Under the pieces are notes generated by a model. That model had not been told where the DNA came from. It did not search any database and saw nothing but the letters and a program-made list of their open reading frames with translations. This document shows, in pieces, positions 33,635-60,601 of a stretch of 64,000 nt of DNA. Where the stretch lies: positions 62,001 to 126,000 of the forward strand of contig JADHML010000001.1 of the NCBI GenBank assembly GCA_016780065.1, given 5' to 3'. The stretch comes from Flavobacteriaceae bacterium. Its GTDB lineage: Bacteria > Bacteroidota > Bacteroidia > Flavobacteriales > Flavobacteriaceae. Numbering within the stretch: the first letter of the stretch is position 1; each line of letters opens with the position of its first letter. Both the position numbers and the translations under genes were made by a program.

Positions 33635-34177
33635 GTGCGTCGATTGATTTATTTTTGTGTAGTATTAACTCTTTTGTCAGGGTGTACAGACAATCTATCT
33701 GCTATCAAAGAAATCAATCGTTTTGATCAATCCCCGATAGGAATTACTGAAAATTTATATTTGATTTATTCTGACTCAGCCTTTGTTGAGGCAATTCTTG
33801 AGGCTGAAAAAAATATAGATTTCACGAATCAAAAATTCCCTTATTCTGAATTTCCTGAAGGACTGGAGGTTACTTTGTTTGATAGAAAAGGAAATCAAAC
33901 ACATGTACATGCTGATTATGGTATATACTACCCAAAAACTGAGATTATCGACCTTCAAGGAAATGTAATCATATCAGATTCTACCGGCGTACAACTCAAC
34001 ACACATCAACTTTATTGGGATGCGGGGCAAGAATGGTTATTTACCGAAAAAAACTTTACTTTTACAAGTGAAGACTATGATATAAAAGCAACCCAGCTAG
34101 ACGCCAATCGCTCTTTTACTAAATTAGTGACTGGAGTCTTGCGAGGGACCGTTCAAGTTCAAGAAGATCAATTATAA
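33635..34177 (+). CDS. lptC: LPS export component LptC
   Basis: This 180-residue protein starts at GTG 33635 with a lipoprotein-type signal (FCVVLTLLSGCTDN). The mature part fits the LptC beta-jellyroll: PEGLEVTLFDRKGNQTHVHA, YYPKTEIIDLQGNVIIS and LFTEKNFTF. LptC relays LPS from the LptBFG transporter to LptA across the periplasm. Lipid anchoring instead of a membrane helix is common in Bacteroidota LptC. Confidence 0.85.
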   Translation: MRRLIYFCVVLTLLSGCTDNLSAIKEINRFDQSPIGITENLYLIYSDSAFVEAILEAEKNIDFTNQKFPYSEFPEGLEVTLFDRKGNQTHVHADYGIYYPKTEIIDLQGNVIISDSTGVQLNTHQLYWDAGQEWLFTEKNFTFTSEDYDIKATQLDANRSFTKLVTGVLRGTVQVQEDQL

Positions 34178-34180
34178 ATT

Positions 34181-34381
34181 ATGCGACAATTTTTTAGAAT
34201 TTCAGAATTTATTTATTTGGCATGTGGGTTTTTGTTTACCTATAGAGTTTTGATAAATATCAATGAGGTGAACAACCAACTCTACATTTACATACTTTTT
34301 GCAGCCCTTTCTTTTGGGATGTATTTTTTTAGACGTCGATTTCGCAAAAAAATAGAAGACAGGAACCAAGGAGGTTCATGA
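34181..34381 (+). CDS. Small two-helix membrane protein
   Basis: This is a 66-residue protein with two hydrophobic helices (about 8-25 and 33-50) and a basic C-terminal tail containing FRRRFRKKIEDR. It is 3 nt after lptC and overlaps the following CNNM gene by ATGA at 34378-34381, so it is very likely translated. No family is recognised. Confidence 0.75.
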   Translation: MRQFFRISEFIYLACGFLFTYRVLININEVNNQLYIYILFAALSFGMYFFRRRFRKKIEDRNQGGS

Positions 34382-35646
34382 GTCATTCCCCAATAGTTAT
34401 ACTGGTTTGCTTATTGCTCTCTGCCTTTTTTTCAGGTATGGAGATTGCATTTGTTTCCTCGAATCGCATTCGCCTGGCAATCCAAAAAAAACAAGGAGGA
34501 TTGATGGCTATTGCACTTAGTAAACTAACTGATAACCCTTCTAAATTTATCGCCACAGCGTTGGTGGGAAATAACGTTGCCCTTGTTGTGTATGGGATTT
34601 TTATGGGGCAATACATCATTCATTTGGCCCATCCAAACCTAGTTCATGTTGCTGAGTTGCCACTATCTGTTATTTTAGAACAAATCTTGATTTCTACCGC
34701 TGTTATTTTGATAACAGCTGAATTTATGCCCAGAGTTGTTTTTAAGATTTATGCCAACTCATTATTACAGTTTTTTGCCATTCCTGCTATTTTGTTTTAT
34801 CACATTCTAAGTCCGCTTACCAACGGATTCTTATGGTTTTCAAATACGTTGCTTCATAAACTTTTTAAGGTTGGAGAAGATCAAAATTCGACTGCTTTCA
34901 CACGAGTTGAGCTTGAAGAATATGTCAGCGAACATGTAGGTTCTGCTCAAGAAGAGGAATTGGAAAATGAAATTCAAATATTTCATAATGCATTAGCTTT
35001 TACTGACAGAAAAGCCCGAGAGGTTATGGTGCCAAGAGCCGAAATCACGGCTGTCGATAGATATATGCCTATTGAACAACTTACAGACTTATTTTCAAAA
35101 ACTGGCTATTCTAAAATACTGGTTTTTAATAGTGGCGTGGATCACATTGTGGGTTATGTACACGCTTTCGACCTATTTAAAAAACCCAAAACTACTCGAT
35201 CTATTATTCACCCTGTAGAATTTGTGCCAGAGTCTATGTATATCAAAGACGTCTTAAATGCGCTTATAAAAAAACGCAAAAGCATGGCGGTTGTTTTAGA
35301 TGAGTATGGTGGCACAGCAGGCATGATGACTATTGAAGATATTGTAGAAGAGTTGTTTGGAGAGATTGAAGACGAGTACGATCAAATCGACTTGATTGAG
35401 CATCAACAGGATGATGGGACTTTCGTTTTTTCTGCTCGTTTGGAAATCGATTATCTGAATGAAACATATGACTTGTATTTTCAGACAAGTGATCAATATG
35501 AAACTCTCGGAGGCTATATAGTACATCACACGGAAAATGTTCCAGAAAAAGGAGCAACCTTCGTTATTGAGCAGTGTGATTTTGAAATTGAAGAAGTATC
35601 CAACACAAAGATAGAGTTGGTCAGGGTCAAACCACAAAATGCTTGA
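34378..35646 (+). CDS. CNNM/CorC family protein with CBS domains
   Basis: This 422-residue protein has the DUF21 transmembrane domain (residues 1 to about 180, including LLLSAFFSGMEIAFVSSNR), two CBS domains (about 200-325, AREVMVPRAEITAVD and SMAVVLDEYGGTAGMMTIED) and a C-terminal CorC_HlyC domain. Members affect magnesium or cation transport and were once called hemolysins. The gliding protein GldE belongs to this family, but the usual gldE neighbours are absent, so I leave it unnamed. Confidence 0.88.
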   Translation: MSHSPIVILVCLLLSAFFSGMEIAFVSSNRIRLAIQKKQGGLMAIALSKLTDNPSKFIATALVGNNVALVVYGIFMGQYIIHLAHPNLVHVAELPLSVILEQILISTAVILITAEFMPRVVFKIYANSLLQFFAIPAILFYHILSPLTNGFLWFSNTLLHKLFKVGEDQNSTAFTRVELEEYVSEHVGSAQEEELENEIQIFHNALAFTDRKAREVMVPRAEITAVDRYMPIEQLTDLFSKTGYSKILVFNSGVDHIVGYVHAFDLFKKPKTTRSIIHPVEFVPESMYIKDVLNALIKKRKSMAVVLDEYGGTAGMMTIEDIVEELFGEIEDEYDQIDLIEHQQDDGTFVFSARLEIDYLNETYDLYFQTSDQYETLGGYIVHHTENVPEKGATFVIEQCDFEIEEVSNTKIELVRVKPQNA

Positions 35647-35711
35647 CAAAAAAACAGGTTTTATTTAACCTAAAGAAATTGTATTTTCGCCTACTATCAA
35701 AAAAATAAATT

Positions 35712-37814
35712 ATGGCCATTCTAGGCAAAATAAGAGAACGATCGATTTTTTTAATACTTGTAATAGGTATGGCATTGTTTGCCTTTGTCATTTCTGGTGT
35801 ATTTGACGGAGCTGGTTCTATTTCTCAAGACCCCCTTGCTAAAGTAGGAGATGAGGAGATTTCATTAGAGCAGTTTAGTCCACGTGTCGATTTTGTAGAA
35901 CGAAACTACGGCATGACGACCCTTCAAGCAGTTAATTTTGTTTGGGATCAAGTAGTCAATGAAACAGCCTTCAAGCAACAACTAGAAGATCTAGGTCTAA
36001 ATGTCGGTCGAGACCACGTAGCAGATTTTGTCTCTACCGACCCAAGCTTTATGCAAGACTCACGTTTTCAAAATGCCATAGGCCAGTTTGATTTAAACGC
36101 ATTTTCAGACTTTGTTTCTGATTTAAGAGCAAATAACCCATCGGGTTATGCACAGTGGCAACAGCAAGAATCATCTATTATGGACAACTTGCGTCAACGT
36201 CAATATTCGAATATGGCTCGCTTAGGAATCCATTACACCCAGTTTGAAGGCGCACAAGCTCATGCTCTTGAAAACGATAAAATCAACATTGAGTATATAA
36301 AAATTCCTTACACAGCGATTGCAGACAGCTTGTTTACTGTAACCGATTCGGAAATAAAAATATATATATCTCAAAACGAGGACACTTACCAGCGAGATGC
36401 TTCTAGAAACATTGAGTATGTTGTTTTTGAAGAGAAAGCATCTGTTGAGGATAATTTAGAACTTGAAGCCAGTTTAAAAGTGCTTCTAGCGCCTCAAACC
36501 GTTTTTAATGAAGTCACTCAGCGAGAGGAAGTGATTCCTTCGTTCTCTGAAACCAACGATATTTCGGATTTTGTATCTGAGTATTCAGATGTTCCATATG
36601 ACGGTCAGTACCAAACAAAGGCTCAGTTGGGAACATATGCTAATACACTTTTTGAGTTGAAAGAAGGCGCTGTATTTGGACCATATAAAGATGGAGATTA
36701 TTTCAAAATATCTAGATTGATGGATTTTGACAAAGGCGGATCTGTAAAAGCCCGTCACATTCTTATTTCTTATCAAGGTTCTCAAAATGCTGGAAATGAA
36801 ATCAGCCGCACAAAAGACGAAGCTCGAAAAGAAGCATACCGAGTTTTAAGATTGGTCCGTCGTTCTGGATCCGATTTTTCTGAACTAGCCCGAACTTATT
36901 CTGATGGACCGTCAAAGAATCGAGGAGGAGAATTAGGTTTCTTCAAACGTGGAGCTATGGTTGAGGCTTTCAATGACTTTGTTTTTAGCAAGGCTGTTGG
37001 ATCATTGGGGGTTGTCGAAACTGAATTTGGTTTTCATGTAATTGAGGTTCAAGATAAAGAAGATGTTGTTTTGTTGGCTAGTGTTGCTAAAAAGATTGTT
37101 CCTTCTGAAGCAACTAGCAATCAGGTTTTTCGTTCAGCTACTCAATTTGAGCTTAACAGTGGGGAAGATGGATTTTCATCTGCTTCTCAGGCTGAAAACT
37201 ATGAGATTAAGACAGCTTCAAAGCTCAAAGAGTTAGATGAAAACATTCCAGGACTGGGTGCCGAGCGCAATATTGTGAGATGGGCATACAGCGAATACAC
37301 CTCAATAGGTTCTGTCAAACGATTCAATAAGCAGGGGGGTGGTTATGTAGTAGCAAGGCTTTTAGAGTCTATTGATGAGGGTCTGGCCAGCATTGAGGAA
37401 GTACGTTCTCAAATTTCTACGATCTTACTTAAACAAAAGAAGTTCGATTATCTACAAAAAAAACACGCTGGAACAAACGATTTGAACAGTTTGGCCAGTA
37501 CTTATAATGTGACAGTCAATACTTCTTCTGCAATAAACGCTGCTGCTGGAACCATTGCGGGAGCAGGAACAGAACCCGGAGTTGTAGGAGCAAGTTTTGG
37601 GTTAGAAATAGGTGAAACGTCTACCTTAATTGAAGGTAAACAAGGTGCTTTTTTGGTAAAGTTGAAAGACTTACAAAAAGCTACTCCTTTGGTTTCTTAT
37701 CAGGGTTATAATGACACTTCCTTGTCATTCATTCTTCCAACCTTGACTTCTAAATTACAAGAAGTCGTACAGTCAAACTATGAGTTGGTGGATAACCGAA
37801 GTGAATATTACTAG
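35712..37814 (+). CDS. PpiD-like periplasmic peptidyl-prolyl isomerase
   Basis: This 700-residue foldase has one N-terminal membrane anchor (IFLILVIGMALFAFVISGVF), a SurA/PpiD N-domain (residues 40-250) and a parvulin domain at about 345-450 (VKARHILISYQG, FSELARTYSDGPSKNRGGEL, VETEFGFHVIEV). It assists folding of proteins leaving the Sec translocon toward the outer membrane. It is the last gene of the coaX-to-foldase run and borders the cas9 island. Confidence 0.9.
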   Translation: MAILGKIRERSIFLILVIGMALFAFVISGVFDGAGSISQDPLAKVGDEEISLEQFSPRVDFVERNYGMTTLQAVNFVWDQVVNETAFKQQLEDLGLNVGRDHVADFVSTDPSFMQDSRFQNAIGQFDLNAFSDFVSDLRANNPSGYAQWQQQESSIMDNLRQRQYSNMARLGIHYTQFEGAQAHALENDKINIEYIKIPYTAIADSLFTVTDSEIKIYISQNEDTYQRDASRNIEYVVFEEKASVEDNLELEASLKVLLAPQTVFNEVTQREEVIPSFSETNDISDFVSEYSDVPYDGQYQTKAQLGTYANTLFELKEGAVFGPYKDGDYFKISRLMDFDKGGSVKARHILISYQGSQNAGNEISRTKDEARKEAYRVLRLVRRSGSDFSELARTYSDGPSKNRGGELGFFKRGAMVEAFNDFVFSKAVGSLGVVETEFGFHVIEVQDKEDVVLLASVAKKIVPSEATSNQVFRSATQFELNSGEDGFSSASQAENYEIKTASKLKELDENIPGLGAERNIVRWAYSEYTSIGSVKRFNKQGGGYVVARLLESIDEGLASIEEVRSQISTILLKQKKFDYLQKKHAGTNDLNSLASTYNVTVNTSSAINAAAGTIAGAGTEPGVVGASFGLEIGETSTLIEGKQGAFLVKLKDLQKATPLVSYQGYNDTSLSFILPTLTSKLQEVVQSNYELVDNRSEYY

Positions 37815-37835
37815 AAAATCAGTTTTTTCCTACAT

Positions 37836-38024
37836 TCAAGTAGTATTTATTGTACGTAAAAAAACAATCACTTTTGACACTTTTATGAATGTGTAAGGCT
37901 GTTTAATTCCAAAAATTAAGGATTTTACTTGGCTGACAATAAAATTTGCTTGTCTTTTTTCACTTTTACTCCAAGAAGAAGACGATGCGGAATTTATCAG
38001 TGCTTTTTCATTTAGTTTTTTCAT
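37836..38024 (-). CDS. Doubtful 62-residue open frame upstream of the cas9 island
   Basis: This open frame begins MKKLNEKALINS, a start seen in short Bacteroidota leader-type peptides, followed by a Ser-rich stretch and a basic hydrophobic tail. No domain is recognised. Its start codon lies inside the loop of a 12-bp inverted repeat (37984-37995 with 38050-38061), whose inner arm is within its own codons. It may be a small regulated peptide gene, but it may equally be a chance frame. Confidence 0.2.
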   Translation of the reverse strand: MKKLNEKALINSASSSSWSKSEKRQANFIVSQVKSLIFGIKQPYTFIKVSKVIVFLRTINTT

Positions 38025-38061
38025 AAGTTATAGTTTAGTTCAACACCCCAAATTCCGCATC
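37984..38061. repeat. 12-bp perfect inverted repeat with 54-bp loop
   Basis: GATGCGGAATTT (37984-37995) is the exact reverse complement of AAATTCCGCATC (38050-38061). A CC-T6 stretch follows on the plus strand, so it might end the ppiD transcript. It also brackets the start of the 62-residue minus-strand frame. Confidence 0.7.
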
Positions 38062-38081
38062 CCTTTTTTGCCCTGATGACT

Positions 38082-38183
38082 TAACCAATTCTGGTTACTA
38101 TGTTTAGAAATGAATCATTCTAGATTCTTTTAAAATTCCTCGTCGATGGTTGGTCTCTACCGATCATCGACTTGGTTTTTTTT
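38082..38183 (+). ncRNA. Candidate small structured RNA ending in a terminator
   Basis: Three successive hairpins occur: TAACCA-ATTC-TGGTTA (38082-38097), GAATC/GATTC (38112-38127) and GTCGATG/CATCGAC (38142-38148 with 38165-38171). The last is followed by TTGG and eight T residues (38176-38183). The final hairpin works as a plus-strand terminator; whether the whole stretch is an independent RNA is uncertain. It converges on the tracr-like RNA, leaving about 30 bp between the two 3' ends. Confidence 0.4.
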
Positions 38184-38212
38184 GATGTGTTGTCAGAAAA
38201 TTATCGACTAGC

Positions 38213-38282
38213 AAAAAAAAAATCCCACCGAAGTGGGATTGTAGACGTTGGTCTGCGGCATTGAGCCTTATTGTGATAAGAT
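38213..38282 (-). ncRNA. tracrRNA-like RNA, divergent from cas9
   Basis: Read on the minus strand, the RNA contains anti-repeat ATCTTATCACAAT, then AAGGC-TCAAT-GCC forming a small nexus stem, hairpin AGAC-CAAC-GTCT (38254-38243), and a terminator hairpin AATCCCAC-TTCG-GTGGGATT (38240-38221) with a run of T. The core ACAATAAGGC...TGCCGCA closely resembles, from memory, the corresponding part of Neisseria meningitidis tracrRNA. A -7 box TATATTTG lies at 38293-38286 on the same strand, predicting a start near 38280 and a very short anti-repeat of about 13 nt. The anti-repeat matches the 14-nt direct repeats found downstream of cas9. Confidence 0.8.
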
Positions 38283-38285
38283 GTT

Positions 38286-38293
38286 CAAATATA
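38286..38293 (-). promoter_or_regulatory. -7 box of the tracr-like RNA
   Basis: TATATTTG on the minus strand is an exact TAnnTTTG box, only 10 bp from the divergent cas9 ATG. No well-spaced upstream TTG is apparent. Confidence 0.5.
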
Positions 38294-38302
38294 TAAAAAA
38301 TT

Positions 38303-41300
38303 ATGAGTTTTACTTTAGGTCTTACAATTTCTTATAATACCATTGGATGGGCATTGATCGACAAAGCGGGTCAAAAACCCAATATTGATATGGGAGTTCG
38401 TGTTTTTCAACCAAGTGTTCTTAACATTGGAGAGGGGATTCGAGAACAATCGACACACACTCAAAGAACTCATGTAAGACAAATGCGTAAGATTTTTAGA
38501 AACAAACGCTTGAGAAAACAAAAACTCCTAAGTTTATTGATCGATCATCATTTATGCCCTCTGTCTAAAAAAGATTTACAATCTTGGATAGAAAAAAGAC
38601 GTTTTCCCCACAATTCCTTTTCTGATTGGTTAGAACTAGACCCTTATGTTCTTAGATCAAAAGCGATAAAAGAAAAAATTGAACTTTTTGAATTGGGCCG
38701 GATTTTCTATCATATTTCACAGCGTAGGGGCAAATGTTATGTAGCTAGGGAGAGTCAAAAAGACAATAGGATTTATTTTCACGGTAAGCCACAAATGAAT
38801 AGAGTAGGTCTTAGAGAAACACTCGAAGCACTAGAAGATGATCAAACATTGGGCGCTTATTTGGCAGAATTAAAACCAGCCCATGGTGTGCCTTATGAAA
38901 AAAATGACAATCGCATCCGAAACCGTTATTTAGATAGGCTGATGTATGTAGATGAGTTTCATAAGATTTACTCGTTTCAGCAAAAGTTTTATCCTGAACT
39001 TACCCATTCCGTAAGAGTTGCACTTGGTGGAGTTGAAGGAAGTGAAAATGATCTCAAAAGTGGTGTGTTGTTTTTTCAAAGACCCTTAAAACCCAACCAA
39101 ACTTTTAAACGATTTTGCCCTATTGAGCCCAATAAAAAACGTACTCCTGCCTCACATCCCGAATATGAGGTATTCAAAGTTCTAAAATGGATTAATAGTA
39201 TTCGTTGTAATGGCAAGCCTTTGAGCACAACTCAAAGAGAAGCGATCTTGGATATCCCTTTTCGTTTTTCTCAGTTTTCTTTTAAAAAAATCAGAAAGGC
39301 CTTGAAACTTGAAGATCAGACGGTGCAGTTTAATTATGATGACAACGACATCATTTCATTGGCTTATTTCTTAGTTCATTTGTCCAAGCCACAGCTTTTT
39401 GGAAATCGCTTCTTAAAACAACCTATAGATGAACAAATCCAAACATGGCACACCTTGTATTTTTTTGATGATTCCTCCAAAATAGAGGCTCATGCAAAAC
39501 AGCGTTGGAATTGCTCTGATGAGCAAGCAACACGATTGATCAAATTACAACTACAACAAGGTTATGGAGCTTTTAGTTTGAAAGCAGTACGCAAAATCAC
39601 ACCTTTCTTAAAACTTGGAATGCGCTTTGATGAAGCTTTGTTTTTTGCAGGACTCTCCGTGGCTACAGGTACGATATGGAAAAACTTCTCCTCGGAACAA
39701 CGAGAATTTTTTGTTAGTGAGTTTTCAAGTTTTATTCATCAAAAAAAGGAAAAGAGAGACTGGGTAAAGGAAATTAAACAAAACTTAAAGACTCATTTCG
39801 AAATTCATCATTTTGATGAAGTCAAATTTTTCAATTACAACCGCCATTTGTTATATAAACAGAAAGTGCGATTAGATACGGGGCTTTCTTCAGATCAACA
39901 TATAAAGAACAAGTTTAAACCCATTGGTCACTCGGCAATTTTTGAGTTGAGAAAGTTGGTCAATGCGATATTAGAAAACTATGGTGAGATTCAAGAAATC
40001 AAAGTATATGTGCGCCCTGTACTTAAAGCCAGTAGATCTTCTCGTAAAAAACAATTTGACGAGAAAAAACGGAGAGCTGCTTCTCAGCACTACCATTTGT
40101 CTGCTGTTCATGAATTGGGTAAAAACCCTACTCATCTTAATATTCTTAAACACCGTCTGTGGGAGGAATTTGACAGACGTTGTCCCTATACTGGTAAGGA
40201 AATAAATATTGATCAGCTATTTACAAACCAAGTGTCTGTGGTACATATATTGCCATGGAATCGGTTTTTTAATGATTCTGACATCAACAAGGCTCTTTGT
40301 ATGAGTTCCTTTAAACATCATATATCCGACAAAACTCCATGGGAATATTTTTCTGAACAACCTACAGGGACTTGGGAACAGGTTAAAATACGGGTTTTAA
40401 AACAGCTATTGAATGTTAATAAAATCTCTGGCATTCAAAAGTTCAAACAATTCACTCGATCGAATTATTCACTAGATGCCAAAACTCATGAAATGACAGA
40501 CACGCACCATGTGAGTTTACATATAAAAAACATACTAAATCAGGTTTGTGAAAATGTACAAATGACCCTAGGGCATACTACGCACAATCTAAGAGAAAAA
40601 TGGTATTTGGACCGACTCGATAATTTTTTACACACCGAGCCCATTAACGATCAAAGAAGACATGCAATAGACGCTTTGGTTACAGCGGTTAAAACTCCTT
40701 TTCTCTTAGATGTATTATCTAAATGGAATCGGTACGAGAACACAGCTCGGAATGCATCTTTCCCTGCCCCATGGCCAGATTTTAAAAAAGACATACAGGC
40801 TGTTTTCGAAACGGTTCAAATAAGTTTTCCTCATCCAAAAAAAGTCTTTACAGCTACTCACAAAACCTATTACAAAAACAATGAGAAAAGAATTGCGCGT
40901 TGTTCTTCGGCTAGAGGACAATTACATAAAGAGTTGTTTTATGGCAAACGTAAGGCACCAAATGAATTGGATTATAGTTATCATATAAGAAAGCCTATTC
41001 ATCAAATTCAAACTGCCAAACATGTGCAAAAGATTGTTGACCCTGAAATTAAAAAGCGTATATATGCTCAAATAGATGCCATGGGAGGTTTTGAAAAAGG
41101 AAAAATTCCAAAAAACTGTTTGACATTTATAGATGAAAAAGGATTTACCCGATCCAAAATCACATTACCTAACAGAAGAGGCGCGGAAGTTCCTGTAAGA
41201 AAAGTACGTATTCGGGAACAACTTGGCAATGCCATACAGTTGCATAAGGATGTTAATATTTTTGCCAATTCTCGAAACAATCACCATATATTGATTTATG

Positions 41301-41740
41301 AAAATATTTATGGAGAATTAGCTCAAAAGGTGATCACTTTTTGGACTGCCGTACATAGAAAGAAAAATAAAGAACCTATTTGGCAACTCCCAGATGATGG
41401 CCGCCGTATTGTGGCAAGCCTCCATCTAAATGATTGTTTTTTGATGGGGCTTACCCCTGAAGAATTAGCTAATTGGAAGCTGTTACCAAAAAAACAACTC
41501 TACGAACACTTGTATCGGGTACAGCGCATTTCAAACAATTTCTACGAATTTAGACATGTATTCGACGCAGATATCTATGATACAGCCTATCCGAACTACA
41601 TAAGAATTTTGAATTTTGGAAAAAGAAAAACAGGATGGAAAACCTATAACCCTAAAAAAGTTTATGTGGACAACCTTGGCAATCTTTTTGAATATAAACC
41701 TTTTTACAAATCTGTTAAACAACCCCAAAGTCAATCATGA
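38303..41740 (+). CDS. cas9: Type II-C-like Cas9 homologue, apparently nuclease-dead
   Basis: This 1145-residue full-length Cas9 starts at ATG 38303. The Arg-rich bridge helix is at about 55-75 (THVRQMRKIFRNKRLRKQK) and IFYHISQRRG at 135-144. RuvC-I reads LGLTISYNTIGWAL: the catalytic Asp is Thr8. RuvC-II reads EIKVYVRPVLKAS: the Glu is Tyr569. HNH keeps CPYTGKEI (627-634) and His648 (VVHILPWNRF), but its Asp is Val647 and its catalytic Asn, 23 residues after the His, is Lys671. RuvC-III keeps His787 and Asp790 (RRHAIDALV). The C-terminal part retains EVPVRKVRIRE, LGNAIQLHKDVN and RNNHHILIYENIYG, as in active Bacteroidota Cas9. There is no cas1, cas2 or normal array, and both flanks are housekeeping genes. 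It probably still binds guide RNA and DNA without cutting. Confidence 0.93.
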   Translation: MSFTLGLTISYNTIGWALIDKAGQKPNIDMGVRVFQPSVLNIGEGIREQSTHTQRTHVRQMRKIFRNKRLRKQKLLSLLIDHHLCPLSKKDLQSWIEKRRFPHNSFSDWLELDPYVLRSKAIKEKIELFELGRIFYHISQRRGKCYVARESQKDNRIYFHGKPQMNRVGLRETLEALEDDQTLGAYLAELKPAHGVPYEKNDNRIRNRYLDRLMYVDEFHKIYSFQQKFYPELTHSVRVALGGVEGSENDLKSGVLFFQRPLKPNQTFKRFCPIEPNKKRTPASHPEYEVFKVLKWINSIRCNGKPLSTTQREAILDIPFRFSQFSFKKIRKALKLEDQTVQFNYDDNDIISLAYFLVHLSKPQLFGNRFLKQPIDEQIQTWHTLYFFDDSSKIEAHAKQRWNCSDEQATRLIKLQLQQGYGAFSLKAVRKITPFLKLGMRFDEALFFAGLSVATGTIWKNFSSEQREFFVSEFSSFIHQKKEKRDWVKEIKQNLKTHFEIHHFDEVKFFNYNRHLLYKQKVRLDTGLSSDQHIKNKFKPIGHSAIFELRKLVNAILENYGEIQEIKVYVRPVLKASRSSRKKQFDEKKRRAASQHYHLSAVHELGKNPTHLNILKHRLWEEFDRRCPYTGKEINIDQLFTNQVSVVHILPWNRFFNDSDINKALCMSSFKHHISDKTPWEYFSEQPTGTWEQVKIRVLKQLLNVNKISGIQKFKQFTRSNYSLDAKTHEMTDTHHVSLHIKNILNQVCENVQMTLGHTTHNLREKWYLDRLDNFLHTEPINDQRRHAIDALVTAVKTPFLLDVLSKWNRYENTARNASFPAPWPDFKKDIQAVFETVQISFPHPKKVFTATHKTYYKNNEKRIARCSSARGQLHKELFYGKRKAPNELDYSYHIRKPIHQIQTAKHVQKIVDPEIKKRIYAQIDAMGGFEKGKIPKNCLTFIDEKGFTRSKITLPNRRGAEVPVRKVRIREQLGNAIQLHKDVNIFANSRNNHHILIYENIYGELAQKVITFWTAVHRKKNKEPIWQLPDDGRRIVASLHLNDCFLMGLTPEELANWKLLPKKQLYEHLYRVQRISNNFYEFRHVFDADIYDTAYPNYIRILNFGKRKTGWKTYNPKKVYVDNLGNLFEYKPFYKSVKQPQSQS

Positions 41741-41788
41741 ACCAGATGCAAACCCGTATACAACCCATTTTTCGTGAAGTTAAAATTT

Positions 41789-41802
41789 ATTGTGATTTGA
41801 TA
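41789..41802 (+). repeat. CRISPR-repeat-like unit 1
   Basis: ATTGTGATTTGATA resembles the 5' end of Bacteroidota type II-C repeats. Its first 8 nt pair with ATCACAAT of the tracr-like RNA; a 2-nt TT/TT internal loop and a 3-bp GAT:ATC stem follow. It begins 49 nt after the cas9 stop. The candidate guide is the 20-30 nt ending at 41788. Confidence 0.6.
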
Positions 41803-41829
41803 CACAAAAAATAAGGGTGATCTTTTTAA

Positions 41830-41848
41830 ACGTGTTTACGTCTTTTTT
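41830..41848 (+). terminator. Weak hairpin with T-run between the two repeat-like units
   Basis: ACGT-GTTT-ACGT (41830-41841) is followed by C and six T residues. The 4-bp stem is weak, but it could end a short RNA containing guide 1 and repeat unit 1, or cas9 mRNA. Confidence 0.3.
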
Positions 41849-41862
41849 AATTTAAGTATAGT

Positions 41863-41876
41863 ATTGTGATTTGATA
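41863..41876 (+). repeat. CRISPR-repeat-like unit 2
   Basis: This is an exact 14-nt copy of unit 1 (ATTGTGATTTGATA), starting 74 bp after it. That spacing is close to the 76-77 bp period of repeat plus spacer in Bacteroidota type II-C arrays. Sequence after the 14 nt is not conserved between units, so the repeats are degenerate or minimal. Its downstream part can fold by itself (TTGAT-AA-ATCAA). Confidence 0.6.
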
Positions 41877-41924
41877 AATCAATGATTGGCTGGGGTTTTT
41901 GTTGTTGTTTTAATAGTTCGGGTA

Positions 41925-42419
41925 TTATAAAAAATCCCCTTTGTGTGCCCAAAACTTTAGTACGTATAAGACCAGAAAAGTGACACAAATCAAAAACTTT
42001 AAGAAAGTTCCTGTCAAAAACCCTATAAAAGATCCAAAGGCAGCTCTGTAAGCCTGACGCATGGGGGTTTTTTGGCTAATTTCTCCGGCTAATGCTCCTA
42101 TAAAAGGACCAAAAATAATACCTATGGGTCCCATGAATAAACCAACTAACATTCCAATTCCAGCACCATAAGCACCAGCTTTAGTGCCTCCAAAACGTTT
42201 GGTTCCCCATATAGGAATAAAATAATCAAGGATAAAAACGAGTACGGCCACTGAAAGAGTAATCCCCAAAAAAGACCAATCCATATCGATAACTCCAGTG
42301 AGGTGAATGATCAATAACCCCAACCAACCACACAAGGGTCCAGGAATGACAGGTAAAAAGCTTCCAGCCACCCCAACAGCAACCATCAAGAAACCTATTA
42401 AAAGCAGCAAAATGTCCAT
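41925..42419 (-). CDS. DUF456 membrane protein
   Basis: This protein of about 164 residues with four or five transmembrane helices starts MDILLLLIGFLMVAVGVAGS; an in-frame ATG at 42425 adds two residues. LPVIPGPLCGWLGLLIIHLT and the glycine-rich GAGIGMLVGLFMGPIGIIFG segment are hallmarks of DUF456. The function is unknown. It marks the right border of the cas9 island and is divergent from the lipoprotein gene. Confidence 0.88.
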   Translation of the reverse strand: MDILLLLIGFLMVAVGVAGSFLPVIPGPLCGWLGLLIIHLTGVIDMDWSFLGITLSVAVLVFILDYFIPIWGTKRFGGTKAGAYGAGIGMLVGLFMGPIGIIFGPFIGALAGEISQKTPMRQAYRAAFGSFIGFLTGTFLKFLICVTFLVLYVLKFWAHKGDFL

Positions 42420-42502
42420 ATGCAAATGATTTGTAAGGCGAAATTACTTAACCTTACTCTTATCACAAACCTAAACAGTATTTTTTGTAATTTTCAGTCG
42501 CC

Positions 42503-42943
42503 ATGCGAAGCATATTTTTGGGTTATATATTTCTTTGTTTATTGAGCTGCAATCAGTTCAATAAAACCTCACCAAACAAACCTGACACCAGCTGGCAAAC
42601 TTCCGATCAGCCTCCTGTATTTCCAGGCTGTGAACAACACACGAATGTAGAAGATCAATGGCTTTGTTTTCAGAAAAGCATTTCAAAGTTATTTTTCAAT
42701 GCCTTAAAGGATCAACCCATTTCCAATACATTTAAAGTTAATGACACACTTTGGTTGCATCTTCGCGTCGACCACTCCGGAACCGTGGTGTTAGATGCTA
42801 TCAATGAAACGGATACAATTTCGACAATGTTCCAAAAGATTGAAAAAATGGTTTCTCAATTCCCAAAGTTGTCACCTCCTACAAAAACCAACTTAGGCGT
42901 CACCACTCAAGTCAAGGTTCGATTGCCGATTCAGGTTCCATAA
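42503..42943 (+). CDS. Lipoprotein with a TonB-C-terminal-like domain
   Basis: This 146-residue protein has the lipobox FLCLLSC near residues 11-17. The segment PPVFPGCE and the later LWLHLRVDHSGTVVLDAI and VRLPIQV resemble the C-terminal domain of Bacteroidota TonB proteins. The membrane anchor and proline-rich linker of true TonB are missing, so it is not an energy transducer itself. Its role is unknown. Confidence 0.7.
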   Translation: MRSIFLGYIFLCLLSCNQFNKTSPNKPDTSWQTSDQPPVFPGCEQHTNVEDQWLCFQKSISKLFFNALKDQPISNTFKVNDTLWLHLRVDHSGTVVLDAINETDTISTMFQKIEKMVSQFPKLSPPTKTNLGVTTQVKVRLPIQVP

Positions 42944-42961
42944 AAAATACTACTTTTGATT

Positions 42962-43522
42962 ATGGCAGAATCGCAAACGCGAATTATACTTGGGATAGAT
43001 CCCGGTACGACTATCATGGGTTTTGGCTTATTGTCTGTAAAAGGAAACTCCATGAGCTGCCTTCAAATGGATGAGCTCAAGCTCAACACCAAAGACCATC
43101 ACTATCTACGTCTTCAAAAAATTTTCAATCATACTATTGGGCTGATTGATGAATTTCATCCTGACGAAATTGCGATCGAGGCCCCTTTTTTCGGAAAAAA
43201 TGTACAGTCGATGCTGAAGTTAGGACGTGCTCAAGGAGTCGCCATGGCTGCAGGCTTGTCTAGAGAGATTCCTATCACTGAATACTCTCCTAAAAAAATC
43301 AAAATGGCCATTACAGGAAATGGAAACGCAAGCAAGGATCAAGTTGCTAAAATGTTGAAATCTCTACTAAAACTCAAGTCTCTTCCTAAAAACTTAGATG
43401 CTACGGATGGCTTGGCCGCTGCGGTTTGTCATTTTTTCAATCCAACCGATTCGTCTGACGAAAAAAAATATAAAGGTTGGGCCTCCTTTGTAAACCAACA
43501 ATCCCATAGGATTAGAAATTAA
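42962..43522 (+). CDS. ruvC: Crossover junction endodeoxyribonuclease RuvC
   Basis: This 186-residue Holliday-junction resolvase starts at ATG 42962. [13 protein letters not shown] holds the first catalytic aspartate and [13 protein letters not shown] the catalytic glutamate; [15 protein letters not shown] holds the C-terminal acidic pair. Unlike the RuvC-like site of the nearby Cas9, all catalytic acids are intact. A TACTTTTG box at 42951-42958 lies directly before the gene. Confidence 0.95.
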
Positions 43523-43529
43523 GTCCCTA

Positions 43530-44660
43530 TTGAGCGGTTTATACATACATATTCCCTTTTGCAAACAAGCTTGTAATTATTGTAACTTCCATTTTTCTAC
43601 GGTTTATAAACAAAAGTCAGCGCTTTTGGAGGCCATGTGTGAGGAAATCACATTAAAATCATTTCAAAAGCCAACTCCCTTAGACACGCTGTATTTTGGT
43701 GGTGGAACCCCCTCGGTGTTTACTCCATCAGAACTTGATAAAATCATAAAGGCGGTAACAAAACATCATCATTTACTTGCTGATGCGGAGATTACTTTAG
43801 AAGCCAACCCCGACGACATTGACAAGTCATATTTAAATGATTTGATTGATTTGGGATTCAATAGGTTATCTGTCGGGGTGCAATCTTTTCATGACAGAGA
43901 GCTCAAAATGATGAATCGCGCCCACAACACAAAACAAGCAAAAGAAGCTTTAAGTTTGGTTGCAGATCTGTTTTCCAACTGGTCTTTGGACCTGATGTTT
44001 GGTATGCCGAAAAGTACCCATCAATCATGGGAAGAAAACCTTCAACAAGCCATGTTGTTTGATCCGCCTCACCTCTCTGCTTATGCACTGACAATTGAAC
44101 CACATACGGCCTTAGAAAAATACATACAAGAAGGATTTATAATTCCTTGCAGCGAAGATCAGCATGCTGCCCAATTTGAACAATTGGTCGATTACACCAC
44201 AAAGTTGGGTTATGAAAATTATGAAGTGAATAGTTTTTCCAAACCTGGTATGTATTCCCGTAACAACACAGCTTATTGGACTGGAAAACCTTATTTAGGG
44301 ATCGGTCCTTCAGCACATAGTTTTGAGGGATCAAGAAGGGCGTGGAATGTATCTAACAATGCTCAATACATTAAATCTCTTAAACAAAAGACTATTCCAG
44401 AAACGGAAGAGATACTGACTGAGGTCGATCGTTTTAACGAATATGTGATGACGGGTCTACGAACCCAGTGGGGTGTGTCTTTGGATCATGTTAGGCTTGC
44501 TTTTGGCAAGCATTTTGAAGATCATTTAGTTCATGAAATTCAACCTCAATTAAAGGTTAAAAACCTTAGGTTAGAGAATCGAGTTATTTACACAACCTTA
44601 CAAGGTCGTTTTTTAGCAGATGGCATTGCTGCTTCATTGTTTTTAGTCAACCTTTCTTAA
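43530..44660 (+). CDS. hemW: Radical SAM protein HemW
   Basis: This 376-residue protein starts at TTG 43530, giving MSGLYIHIPFCKQACNYCNF with the CxxxCxxC motif. The family features TLYFGGGTPSVF and NRLSVGVQSF follow, and FNEYVMTGLRTQWG marks the HemN C-terminal domain. It is annotated as HemW, a heme chaperone, rather than the oxygen-independent coproporphyrinogen oxidase HemN, based on its length and on the CNYCNF motif. Its 3' end overlaps the convergent peptidase gene by 14 bp. Confidence 0.9.
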   Translation: MSGLYIHIPFCKQACNYCNFHFSTVYKQKSALLEAMCEEITLKSFQKPTPLDTLYFGGGTPSVFTPSELDKIIKAVTKHHHLLADAEITLEANPDDIDKSYLNDLIDLGFNRLSVGVQSFHDRELKMMNRAHNTKQAKEALSLVADLFSNWSLDLMFGMPKSTHQSWEENLQQAMLFDPPHLSAYALTIEPHTALEKYIQEGFIIPCSEDQHAAQFEQLVDYTTKLGYENYEVNSFSKPGMYSRNNTAYWTGKPYLGIGPSAHSFEGSRRAWNVSNNAQYIKSLKQKTIPETEEILTEVDRFNEYVMTGLRTQWGVSLDHVRLAFGKHFEDHLVHEIQPQLKVKNLRLENRVIYTTLQGRFLADGIAASLFLVNLS

Positions 44661-46038
44661 GATTAGCAAATGCCTTGTGAAATTCTGGAATGGTCTCTAT
44701 CCCTTTTAGAAAATTGAACACCCCAAAATGTTCATTGGGCGAGTGAATAGCATCGCTGTCCAACCCAAAGCCCATCAAGACTGTTTTACTGCCTAAAGTT
44801 TCTTCAAAGAGCGCCACGATTGGAATGCTACCACCATCACGCACAGCGATGGGTGGCTTTCCAAAAGTTTTTTCGTAAGCCTGGCTGGCCGCTTGAAATT
44901 CAACCCCAGAAGTGGGCATTACATAGCCTTGTCCGCCATGATGTTCGGTGACTTTGACTTTTACGCTTTTAGGTGCAATGGCTTTGAAATGATCTGCAAA
45001 CAATTGGCTGATTTTCTTCCAATCTTGATTTGGAACCAAACGCATGGATATTTTTGCGAATGCCTTAGATGGAATTACTGTTTTGGCACCCTCACCAGTA
45101 TATCCGCCCCAAATACCATTGACATCTAAGGTTGGTCGAATAGATTTTCGCTCCAATGTGCTGTAGCCTTCTTCACCATGTATATCTTCTATGTCCAAAG
45201 CGGCTTTATAGGCTGATAGGGAAAAGGGAATTTTTTCAATTTCTTTTCGATCGGCATTTTCCAACACCTCCACTTTGTCATAAAACCCAGGAATGGTCAC
45301 ATGGTTGTTTTTGTCATGAAGAGAAGCAATCATCTGAGTTAAAATATTGATGGGGTTGGCCACAGCACCCCCATAAAGTCCAGAGTGTAAATCTCTGTTA
45401 GGTCCCGTTACTTCAACTTCCATATAGCTCAACCCCCGTAGACCTGTAGTAATAGATGGGGTGTCGTTTGCTAACATGCCTGTATCTGAAATTAGGATGA
45501 CATCGTTGGAAAGTAAATCCGTATGTTCTCGAACGAATGCCTCTAGGTTGTCGCTGCCTACTTCCTCTTCACCTTCAATCATAAACTTGACATTACAAGG
45601 GAGGCCATCTGTTTTCAGCATGACTTCTAATGCCTTCAAGTGCATAAAAAACTGCCCCTTATCATCACAAGCCCCTCTGGCAAAAATGGCACCCTCAGGG
45701 TGGGTTTTGATTTTTTTGACAATGGGGTCAAAGGGGTCGTTGTCCCATAAGTCTAGCGGATCGGGGGGCTGCACGTCGTAATGCCCATAGACAAGTACTG
45801 TGGGCAATTTGGGATCTACCAAGCAAGACCCATATACTACAGGATATCCGGCAGTAGCGTAAATCTGAGTATGTGTACAACCCGATTCTTGTAGGAGCAT
45901 TTCTACTTTTTCAGCTGCTTTTTGCATCTCACCTGCATAGGCTGGGTCTGCACTGATCGAAGGGATTCGGATAAGAGCAAACAATTCTTCTAAAAAACGT
46001 TTTTTATTTTTTTGGATATACGAAAGGGTAGATTTCAT
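44647..46038 (-). CDS. M20 family dipeptidase
   Basis: This 463-residue zinc metallopeptidase has VLVYGHYDVQP (first metal His/Asp), FARGACDDKGQFF (bridging Asp), MIEGEEEVGSDN (catalytic and metal Glu) and DLHSGLYGGAVANP, all typical of the CNDP-like dipeptidase branch of M20. The bimetal site appears complete. It has no clear signal peptide, so a cytoplasmic dipeptidase is likely. Confidence 0.92.
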   Translation of the reverse strand: MKSTLSYIQKNKKRFLEELFALIRIPSISADPAYAGEMQKAAEKVEMLLQESGCTHTQIYATAGYPVVYGSCLVDPKLPTVLVYGHYDVQPPDPLDLWDNDPFDPIVKKIKTHPEGAIFARGACDDKGQFFMHLKALEVMLKTDGLPCNVKFMIEGEEEVGSDNLEAFVREHTDLLSNDVILISDTGMLANDTPSITTGLRGLSYMEVEVTGPNRDLHSGLYGGAVANPINILTQMIASLHDKNNHVTIPGFYDKVEVLENADRKEIEKIPFSLSAYKAALDIEDIHGEEGYSTLERKSIRPTLDVNGIWGGYTGEGAKTVIPSKAFAKISMRLVPNQDWKKISQLFADHFKAIAPKSVKVKVTEHHGGQGYVMPTSGVEFQAASQAYEKTFGKPPIAVRDGGSIPIVALFEETLGSKTVLMGFGLDSDAIHSPNEHFGVFNFLKGIETIPEFHKAFANLKKG

Positions 46039-60464: not shown

Positions 60465-60500
60465 TTGATGTTTGTAAGTGCGTTGTATATTTGCAACGCA
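60465..60500 (+). promoter_or_regulatory. metK promoter overlapped by a palindrome
   Basis: TTG (60465-60467) is followed after 18 bp by TATATTTG (60486-60493), an exact -7 box. The flanks TGCGTTG (60479-60485) and CAACGCA (60494-60500) are perfect inverted repeats centred on the box, like a repressor operator. Confidence 0.65.
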
Positions 60501-60502
60501 AA

Positions 60503-60552
60503 AGAGGATGGATTTGACTGATTGCAACCTCTCTAAAAAAGTGCTAAAGCAG
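60503..60552 (+). promoter_or_regulatory. SAM-II riboswitch
   Basis: P1 is AGAGG (60503-60507) with CCTCT (60528-60532). The loop GATTTGACTGATTGCA and the downstream GTGCTAAAGCAG match the SAM-II pseudoknot core (GATTT, ATTGCA, GCTAAA), compared from memory with the metX aptamer. It precedes metK, metY and metX, all consistent with S-adenosylmethionine control. Confidence 0.9.
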
Positions 60553-60553
60553 T

Positions 60554-60601
60554 GGTTGCTTTACCCAAGACGAGTATTAGTCAAATCCCCAAAAAGCAAC
60601 C
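60554..60601 (+). promoter_or_regulatory. Riboswitch expression platform of metK
   Basis: GGTTGCTTT (60554-60562) is perfectly complementary to AAAGCAACC (60593-60601), forming a hairpin that ends 4 nt before the metK ATG and can block ribosome access. Within its loop, ATTAGTCAAATCC (60576-60588) can pair with the aptamer core GGATTTGACTGAT (60510-60522, one G-U pair). This offers an alternative fold that breaks the aptamer when SAM is absent. Confidence 0.65.

Follow-up and report, generated by a model that had tools for sequence, protein, structure and literature searches.

A nuclease-dead type II-C-like Cas9 of Flavobacteriaceae with a predicted tracrRNA and crRNA-like units, and its possible role as a regulator

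The nuclease-dead Cas12f (dCas12f) that occurs with extracytoplasmic function (ECF) sigma factors is an exapted dead effector. TldR is a nuclease-dead TnpB repressor with demonstrated DNA binding and targets (PMC13418256). In Neisseria meningitidis, a type II-C small CRISPR/Cas-associated RNA (scaRNA) is reported to regulate mainly without Cas9 (PMC13431127). Here, we analysed a stretch of 64,000 nt from a Flavobacteriaceae bacterium (GCA_016780065.1, contig JADHML010000001.1, positions 62,001 to 126,000 of the forward strand), in full called the window, which encodes at 38303..41740 on the + strand a type II-C-like Cas9 of 1145 amino acids with dead nuclease centres (dCas9). The assignment draws on the open reading frame, a family match, an alignment, a tree and a structure model. 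A natural, clade-wide nuclease-dead Cas9 with RNA-like parts of its own is well supported by the sequences; among the papers listed by literature searches, with most subscription journals outside their coverage, none was on a natural dead-Cas9 family. We give an even chance to the proposal that dCas9 is a natural non-cutting RNA-guided DNA binder, likely changing transcription at sites chosen by short guides.

The protein and its clade

The open reading frame (38303-41740) begins with ATG and runs for 1145 codons with zero internal stops. NCBIfam TIGR01865 (Cas9) matches the protein over its full length (residues 4-1127) at 416 bits, the cut-off being 100. An AlphaFold2 model built with a 65-row alignment as input is fairly confident (mean predicted local distance difference test score 83.8, predicted template modelling (TM) score 0.72), and its top PDB match in Foldseek is the type II-C Nme1Cas9 (6je9; E 4e-42, TM 0.60 by query length). 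An earlier note, written from the letters alone, had called the gene a full-length type II-C-like Cas9 in an intact frame, which the reading frame, the family match and the structural match bear out. It had also named four catalytic losses and three retained residues, and the 65-row alignment agrees on all of them: the RuvC-I Asp is replaced by Thr8, the RuvC-II Glu by Tyr569, the HNH Asp/Glu by Val647 and the HNH Asn by Lys671, so that neither nuclease centre is intact, with His648, His787 and Asp790 kept. At 41717-41737 (+) the protein ends in the tail KQPQSQS; a very similar tail is present in P0001-P0010 and not in P0011 or P0013-P0017.

The RuvC-I Asp, the HNH Asp/Glu and the HNH Asn are jointly gone in 23 of the 65 aligned rows (the window protein, P0001-P0017, P0027, P0036 and P0041-P0043), a coincidence that is not due to chance. 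All five checked residues are present in 41 of the remaining 42 rows, the exception being P0046, which lacks the HNH His. The RuvC-II Glu is missing as well in 21 of the 23 dead rows (P0036 and P0043 keep it), and the HNH His is retained in six. Replacement residues vary from branch to branch, as expected of freed sites that drift. Consistent loss in close homologues had been proposed as a check, and the 17 best-scoring proteins (P0001-P0017) all lack the same three residues, which argues against random inactivation in the window gene. In a 63-row tree (short search, fragments P0012 and P0027 excluded, midpoint root for drawing only), the 21 dead rows lie on one side of a single branch among active Cas9s with a Shimodaira-Hasegawa-like approximate likelihood ratio support of 100, forming an old clade with long branches.

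To place the gene in its genomes we used a scan of one genome per species with C-terminal peptide patterns, which found 37 loci. Of these, 36 occupy one chromosomal place, and L027 is an active Cas9 elsewhere. The syntenic locus L008 keeps Asp at position 8, yet carries Ala569, Val647, Tyr648 and Lys671.

Among 13 intact genes (78 pairs), the eight pairs with a nonsynonymous difference (pN) below 0.3 gave pN values of 0.23-0.29 against synonymous values (pS) of 0.73-0.80. The amino acids of the relatives' dCas9 are constrained; silent sites are saturated, so we claim no exact dN/dS. With domain boundaries drawn by eye, we compared conservation between 21 dead rows and 21 active ones taken from the 65. 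Only in the C-terminal domain is conservation higher among dead rows (0.53, vs 0.47 among active rows). This domain has 31 columns that are invariant in the active rows; the dead rows have lost none of them, and 24 persist in 90% or more of the dead rows. Elsewhere, the dead rows have lost 1/21 such columns in RuvC-I, 2/11 in the bridge helix, 19/124 in REC, 6/17 in RuvC-II, 6/39 in HNH and 10/42 in RuvC-III.

Predicted RNA parts beside the gene

Among ten neighbouring proteins (two of them without any Pfam match), Pfam identified neither Cas1 nor Cas2, the rest of the 58%-complete genome not having been searched. No array-like direct repeats occur in window positions 34000-46000, and instead of an array with changing spacers there are two repeat starts only. 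The locus does have, by sequence and fold only, a predicted trans-activating CRISPR RNA (tracrRNA) beside cas9, which together with two CRISPR RNA (crRNA)-like units had escaped the earlier note.

The predicted tracrRNA (38212..38283, - strand) comprises an antirepeat running from 38283 downwards, two small hairpins and a terminator hairpin with a T-run (38240-38213), with a predicted fold of -17.8 kcal/mol (z -3.5). This block is strongly conserved in 11/11 aligned upstream regions, and its layout is common to dead loci and active sisters. In a + strand scan, all loci with a preserved dCas9 5' end had the antirepeat (L001-L018, L021, L025, L035, L039, L041, L042 and L045), and the C-terminal remnant loci had none, bar a 3-mismatch match 5 kb away in L023; L040 is on the opposite strand. 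Next to it lies a promoter-like element, TATATTTG (38286..38293, - strand), with the motif TAnnTTTG, which we take to be the Bacteroidetes -7 element. With repeat copies of a locus and chance matches excluded, exact TAnnTTTG stands 3-8 nt before the antirepeat core in 14/21 dead and 0/10 active loci (background 0.4%), and 25-28 nt before it in 7/10 loci of the active sisters. Because the motif lies nearer to the core in dead loci, the 5' end of the predicted tracrRNA appears to have been shortened by about 20 nt, in parallel with the shortened repeat of the units.

In window-type loci two conserved units follow the gene, each a short guide and then ATTGTGATTTGATA. Unit 1 (41776..41802, +) consists of the guide GAAGTTAAAATTT (41776-41788) and the repeat start (41789-41802); unit 2 (41854..41876, +) of the guide AAGTATAGT (41854-41862) and the same repeat start (41863-41876). 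A short, AT-rich core of the guide is conserved. Exact ATTGTGATTTGATA occurs in the incomplete genome G000 only at these two sites. Pairing with the antirepeat is predicted at -14.9 kcal/mol for unit 1 and -14.4 for unit 2, and at -14.4 to -17.1 kcal/mol across units. Judged by sequence and predicted duplex, the units resemble scaRNAs in lying outside an array, being repeat-like and being partly complementary to the tracrRNA. The sister subclade has one unit; across 21 loci it shows 28 invariant columns, of which 27 are consecutive. Repeat arrays beginning GTTGTGGTTTGATTAAAG are present in 9/10 fetched stretches of the active sisters, and since the units share the start of this repeat, they are apparently the end of a spacer with the first part of a repeat.

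The sister-subclade unit is part of a stable hairpin, with z at or below -2.4 in 22/26 loci and the + strand the more stable one in 24/26. Folding by subclade (16 of the 21 loci of alignment A5) gave double compensatory changes in 4/38, 10/51 and 9/30 pairs, counts that carry no shuffle control; a stem-length test against shuffles was mixed, and RNAalifold on the whole 21-locus alignment returned almost no structure. The fold is lost in L100, L101 and L106, and the window-type unit region is unstructured (z +1.7). The long hairpin around the sister-subclade unit had a 6S-like look, but it is not 6S RNA: the 6S-Flavo model RF01685 matches once in each of 14/14 genomes and never at the locus.

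Upstream of the tracr gene, window-type loci share a further conserved block, at 38055-38185 (+) in the window, that starts CCTTTTTTGCCC and ends in a strong hairpin with a T-run (fold z -5.7). It is possibly another small RNA, convergent with the tracrRNA. As a part of sister-subclade loci it was rejected, similar sequence there falling in an apparent small coding gene. In L177 (genome G011), dCas9 and the tracr gene are deleted, and the CCTTTTTTGCCC block lies just before an intact unit 1, followed by a degraded unit 2.

A regulatory role and its alternatives

The dead residues, the constrained sequence and the tracrRNA- and guide-like parts together make DNA binding without cutting likely. 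In the mechanism we propose, the promoter-like element next to the start of dCas9 would drive minus-strand transcription of the tracrRNA, which would base-pair with each unit's repeat portion in a duplex of 8-10 bp, a UU/UU loop and 3-5 bp; dCas9 would load the paired RNA and hold a target beside a constant protospacer adjacent motif without cutting it. In the sister subclade, dCas9 may have a partner in the small GerE-like helix-turn-helix (HTH) protein encoded beside it, and an additional, Cas9-independent role is probable for the structured unit RNA. Constant guides and a constant C-terminal domain fit one fixed target set, not changing invaders. A domesticated dCas9 acting as a binder or regulator is the best single explanation we have, one that could fall either way. 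A fuller history, in which cutting was abandoned a single time in a Cas9 lineage that then fixed its guide RNAs and turned into a vertically inherited, chromosomal, RNA-guided regulator of Flavobacteriaceae, some descendants keeping a crRNA-derived, Cas9-independent structured small RNA (sRNA), is tentative and somewhat less probable. The earlier note's reading of a retained RNA-guided DNA binder stands in part: the single dead clade, the constrained relatives, the C-terminal domain and the tracrRNA- and guide-like parts favour it, and it is weakened by the many broken relatives and by units that outlive dCas9.

The target searches, the state of the gene in many relatives and the persistence of the unit all weigh against this role. 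No conserved chromosomal target was found at 11-12 nt, and matches do not exceed a reversed-pattern control except in G410. For the sister-subclade guide 12-mer, non-self matches in seven genomes numbered 1, 4, 1, 2, 2, 24 and 2 (control 4, 1, 2, 1, 5, 2 and 2), an eighth record with the same matches as G032 being left out of the count. In four genomes the unit 1 12-mer matched 3, 2, 0 and 0 times (control 2, 4, 6 and 4) and the unit 2 11-mer 0, 0, 0 and 1 times (control 0, 3, 0 and 3). The authors of the N. meningitidis study likewise found no guide-like target for its scaRNA (PMC13431127). The guide 12-mer AATAAATATAGT has 24 further copies in G410 (L021; loci L113-L138) against 2 for the reversed control, often as AACATTAATAAATATAGTAAAC, and some of them look coding. 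Guide matches of 18 nt in L110 (G409) and 15 nt in L117 (G412) fall within an inverted repeat that separates two divergent genes, by eye resembling proline dehydrogenase and aroB. This intergenic region was rejected as a general target, since the 400 nt upstream of the other 12 of 14 genes hold guide matches of at most 6 nt; three genomes with a dCas9 locus, G032, G410 and G177, gave no match for proline dehydrogenase. The promoter is a lead limited to the related G409 and G412. Autoregulation through a local target was rejected as well, with no consistently placed match in the fetched loci at 9-10 nt, the only lengths scored. Short guides would be plausible for dCas9 by analogy: 6-nt guides suffice for TldR (PMC13418256), and 9-15 bp beside a protospacer adjacent motif are quoted for Francisella Cas9-scaRNA (PMC13431127).

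The main rival puts the RNA first: a crRNA-derived sRNA would be the main product and pair with mRNAs, a mode of action reported for the N. meningitidis scaRNA, and dCas9 with its tracrRNA would only stabilise, process or titrate it and be lost when no longer needed. We consider this unlikely. Its evidence includes the least expected result of the analysis, an independent constraint on the unit. Across 13 sister-subclade loci that lack a full dCas9, identity is 98.3% for the 27-nt unit (11 copies exact, one with one change and one with two) and 44-47% for its 60-nt flanks. Among 397 sampled Flavobacteriaceae genomes, the 27-mer (at most three mismatches) is present in nine, as a single copy each; two of these have a full dCas9, and seven have a remnant or nothing. 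The antirepeat is absent at 0-1 mismatch from all 15 genomes without a full dCas9 at the locus (one has a 2-mismatch match) and present in 3/3 dCas9-bearing controls. No other Cas9 matched in the family or genus scan of nine of those 15 genomes; the six represented by L030-L032 and L036-L038 were not searched whole. The unit persists in loci that have lost both dCas9 and tracrRNA, so part of the function is probably independent of Cas9, and the sister-subclade unit RNA probably plays its own role. The stable, + strand-favoured hairpin with its compensatory changes points the same way, as does the meningococcal scaRNA, to which Cas9 is reported to contribute indirectly at most (PMC13431127). 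However, an RNA-first function leaves the constraint on dCas9, where it is kept, unexplained, and the unit region of window-type loci shows no such structure. Window-type units also decay where no full dCas9 is left (L042 has an altered unit 1, L044 damage to both units and L177 a degraded unit 2), and unit 1 is absent, with three mismatches allowed, from 6/13 genomes of the window's genus.

Decay, in which an inactivated Cas9 is slowly vanishing and its conserved parts are leftovers, is a real process in many lineages; as an explanation of the whole we find it improbable. Among the 36 syntenic loci, 12 carry an unbroken full-length gene, seven a full-length but interrupted one, five a gene cut by a contig end (four of these also interrupted) and 12 a remnant, so that 24 are not demonstrably whole (11 interrupted, 12 remnants and one contig-cut but open). 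The 13 genomes of the window's genus, 58-86% complete, hold the whole gene in four (G006 with one stop) and remnants in three more, leaving nine without a full-length match. Interruptions and deletions in so many relatives indicate that the gene is dispensable in some lineages, and frame disruptions of this kind were what the earlier note had said would count against its proposal. In some loci, HTH and dCas9 remnants have been joined by deletion; in L034 and L029, by eye, an HTH-like start seems fused to a C-terminal dCas9 remnant. The window gene itself is in none of the eight pN/pS pairs, its nearest relatives P0001 and P0002 being known as proteins only. Against decay stand a pN far below pS among relatives, one old clade with long branches, a strongly constrained C-terminal domain and invariant RNA units; moreover, C-terminal search patterns over-count C-terminal remnants. 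Residual immunity, in which dCas9 would silence one conserved mobile element through fixed guides without cutting, would suit units derived from a spacer-repeat arrangement and the lack of a conserved chromosomal target, but a family-wide unchanged guide is unlike an arms race and its core is short and AT-rich, which makes this very improbable.

Chromosomal setting and comparison with known systems

As far as contigs reach, the downstream order is DUF456, a small gene, ruvC, hemW and a peptidase. The DUF456 gene (Pfam PF04306; 41925..42425, - strand, in the window) marks the locus, adjoining the gene or its remnant in 33/36 syntenic loci; the contigs of L005 and L033 end earlier, and L020 was only partly read. 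Synteny this constant between loci whose proteins are 32-50% identical points to vertical inheritance. On the upstream side, genes run from coaX to ppiD in window-type loci; in the sister subclade they are, named by eye, lipA, Nramp, an ECF sigma gene and an HTH gene. The small HTH gene (127-138 amino acids) stands directly before the tracr-dCas9 pair in 8/8 sister-subclade loci read (for example L014:9531-9932 and L021:9518-9904, plus six more), and Pfam GerE scored above its cut-off on 2/5 of the proteins tested. The ECF-sigma-like gene lies about 1 kb upstream in seven of those eight loci (not L016) and persists where dCas9 is lost, and is thus a neighbour and not a demonstrated partner. 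Viral contigs gave 85 pattern matches, none encoding a relative. Elsewhere in the window, an S-adenosylmethionine (SAM)-II riboswitch lies at 60498-60557 (+; 74.6 bits).

If the regulatory role of dCas9 holds, the route from dead effector to regulator known for TnpB relatives would extend to Cas9, the best-known RNA-guided protein. The clade would then show which parts of Cas9 selection keeps when there is no need to cut, and would offer naturally tuned binding proteins, a natural counterpart of laboratory dCas9. The unit that outlasts dCas9 and tracrRNA would give a concrete example of how a CRISPR RNA can become an independent small RNA.

The nearest systems in sequence are the active type II-C Cas9s of Flavobacteriaceae (L074-L082 and L084), 37-38% identical to dCas9 (L084 35%). 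Their tracr core and terminator sequence are the same as in dead loci, and their array repeat starts GTTGTGGTTTGATT, as in the sister-subclade unit. They differ in that the checked residues are intact, arrays are visible in 9/10 fetched stretches (not L080), the antirepeat is longer and TAnnTTTG stands at the greater distance from the core (25-28 nt in 7/10, vs 3-8 nt). The dCas12f systems are alike in having a dead effector and, in the sister subclade, an ECF-sigma-like gene (by eye) near dCas9 in 7/8 loci; there the effector is type V, here it is type II, and the sigma-like gene also stays where dCas9 is lost. With scaRNA/tracr-L regulation by Cas9, the locus shares a repeat-like RNA outside an array, partly tracrRNA-complementary and beside Cas9, and those RNAs regulate without cutting, with a Cas9-independent role reported in N. 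meningitidis (PMC13431127, PMC6199352, PMC11417352). The Cas9s of those systems are active nucleases with arrays, unlike the dead nuclease here, and here the unit is kept even without Cas9. TldR (PMC13418256) is similar in a lost nuclease centre, retained guide RNA parts and apparent domestication; the window-clade dCas9 likewise appears, from its sequence, to pair a dead nuclease centre with retained RNA- and DNA-binding parts. It differs from TldR in origin, TldR deriving from TnpB and the window-clade protein being a Cas9 with a separate predicted tracrRNA.

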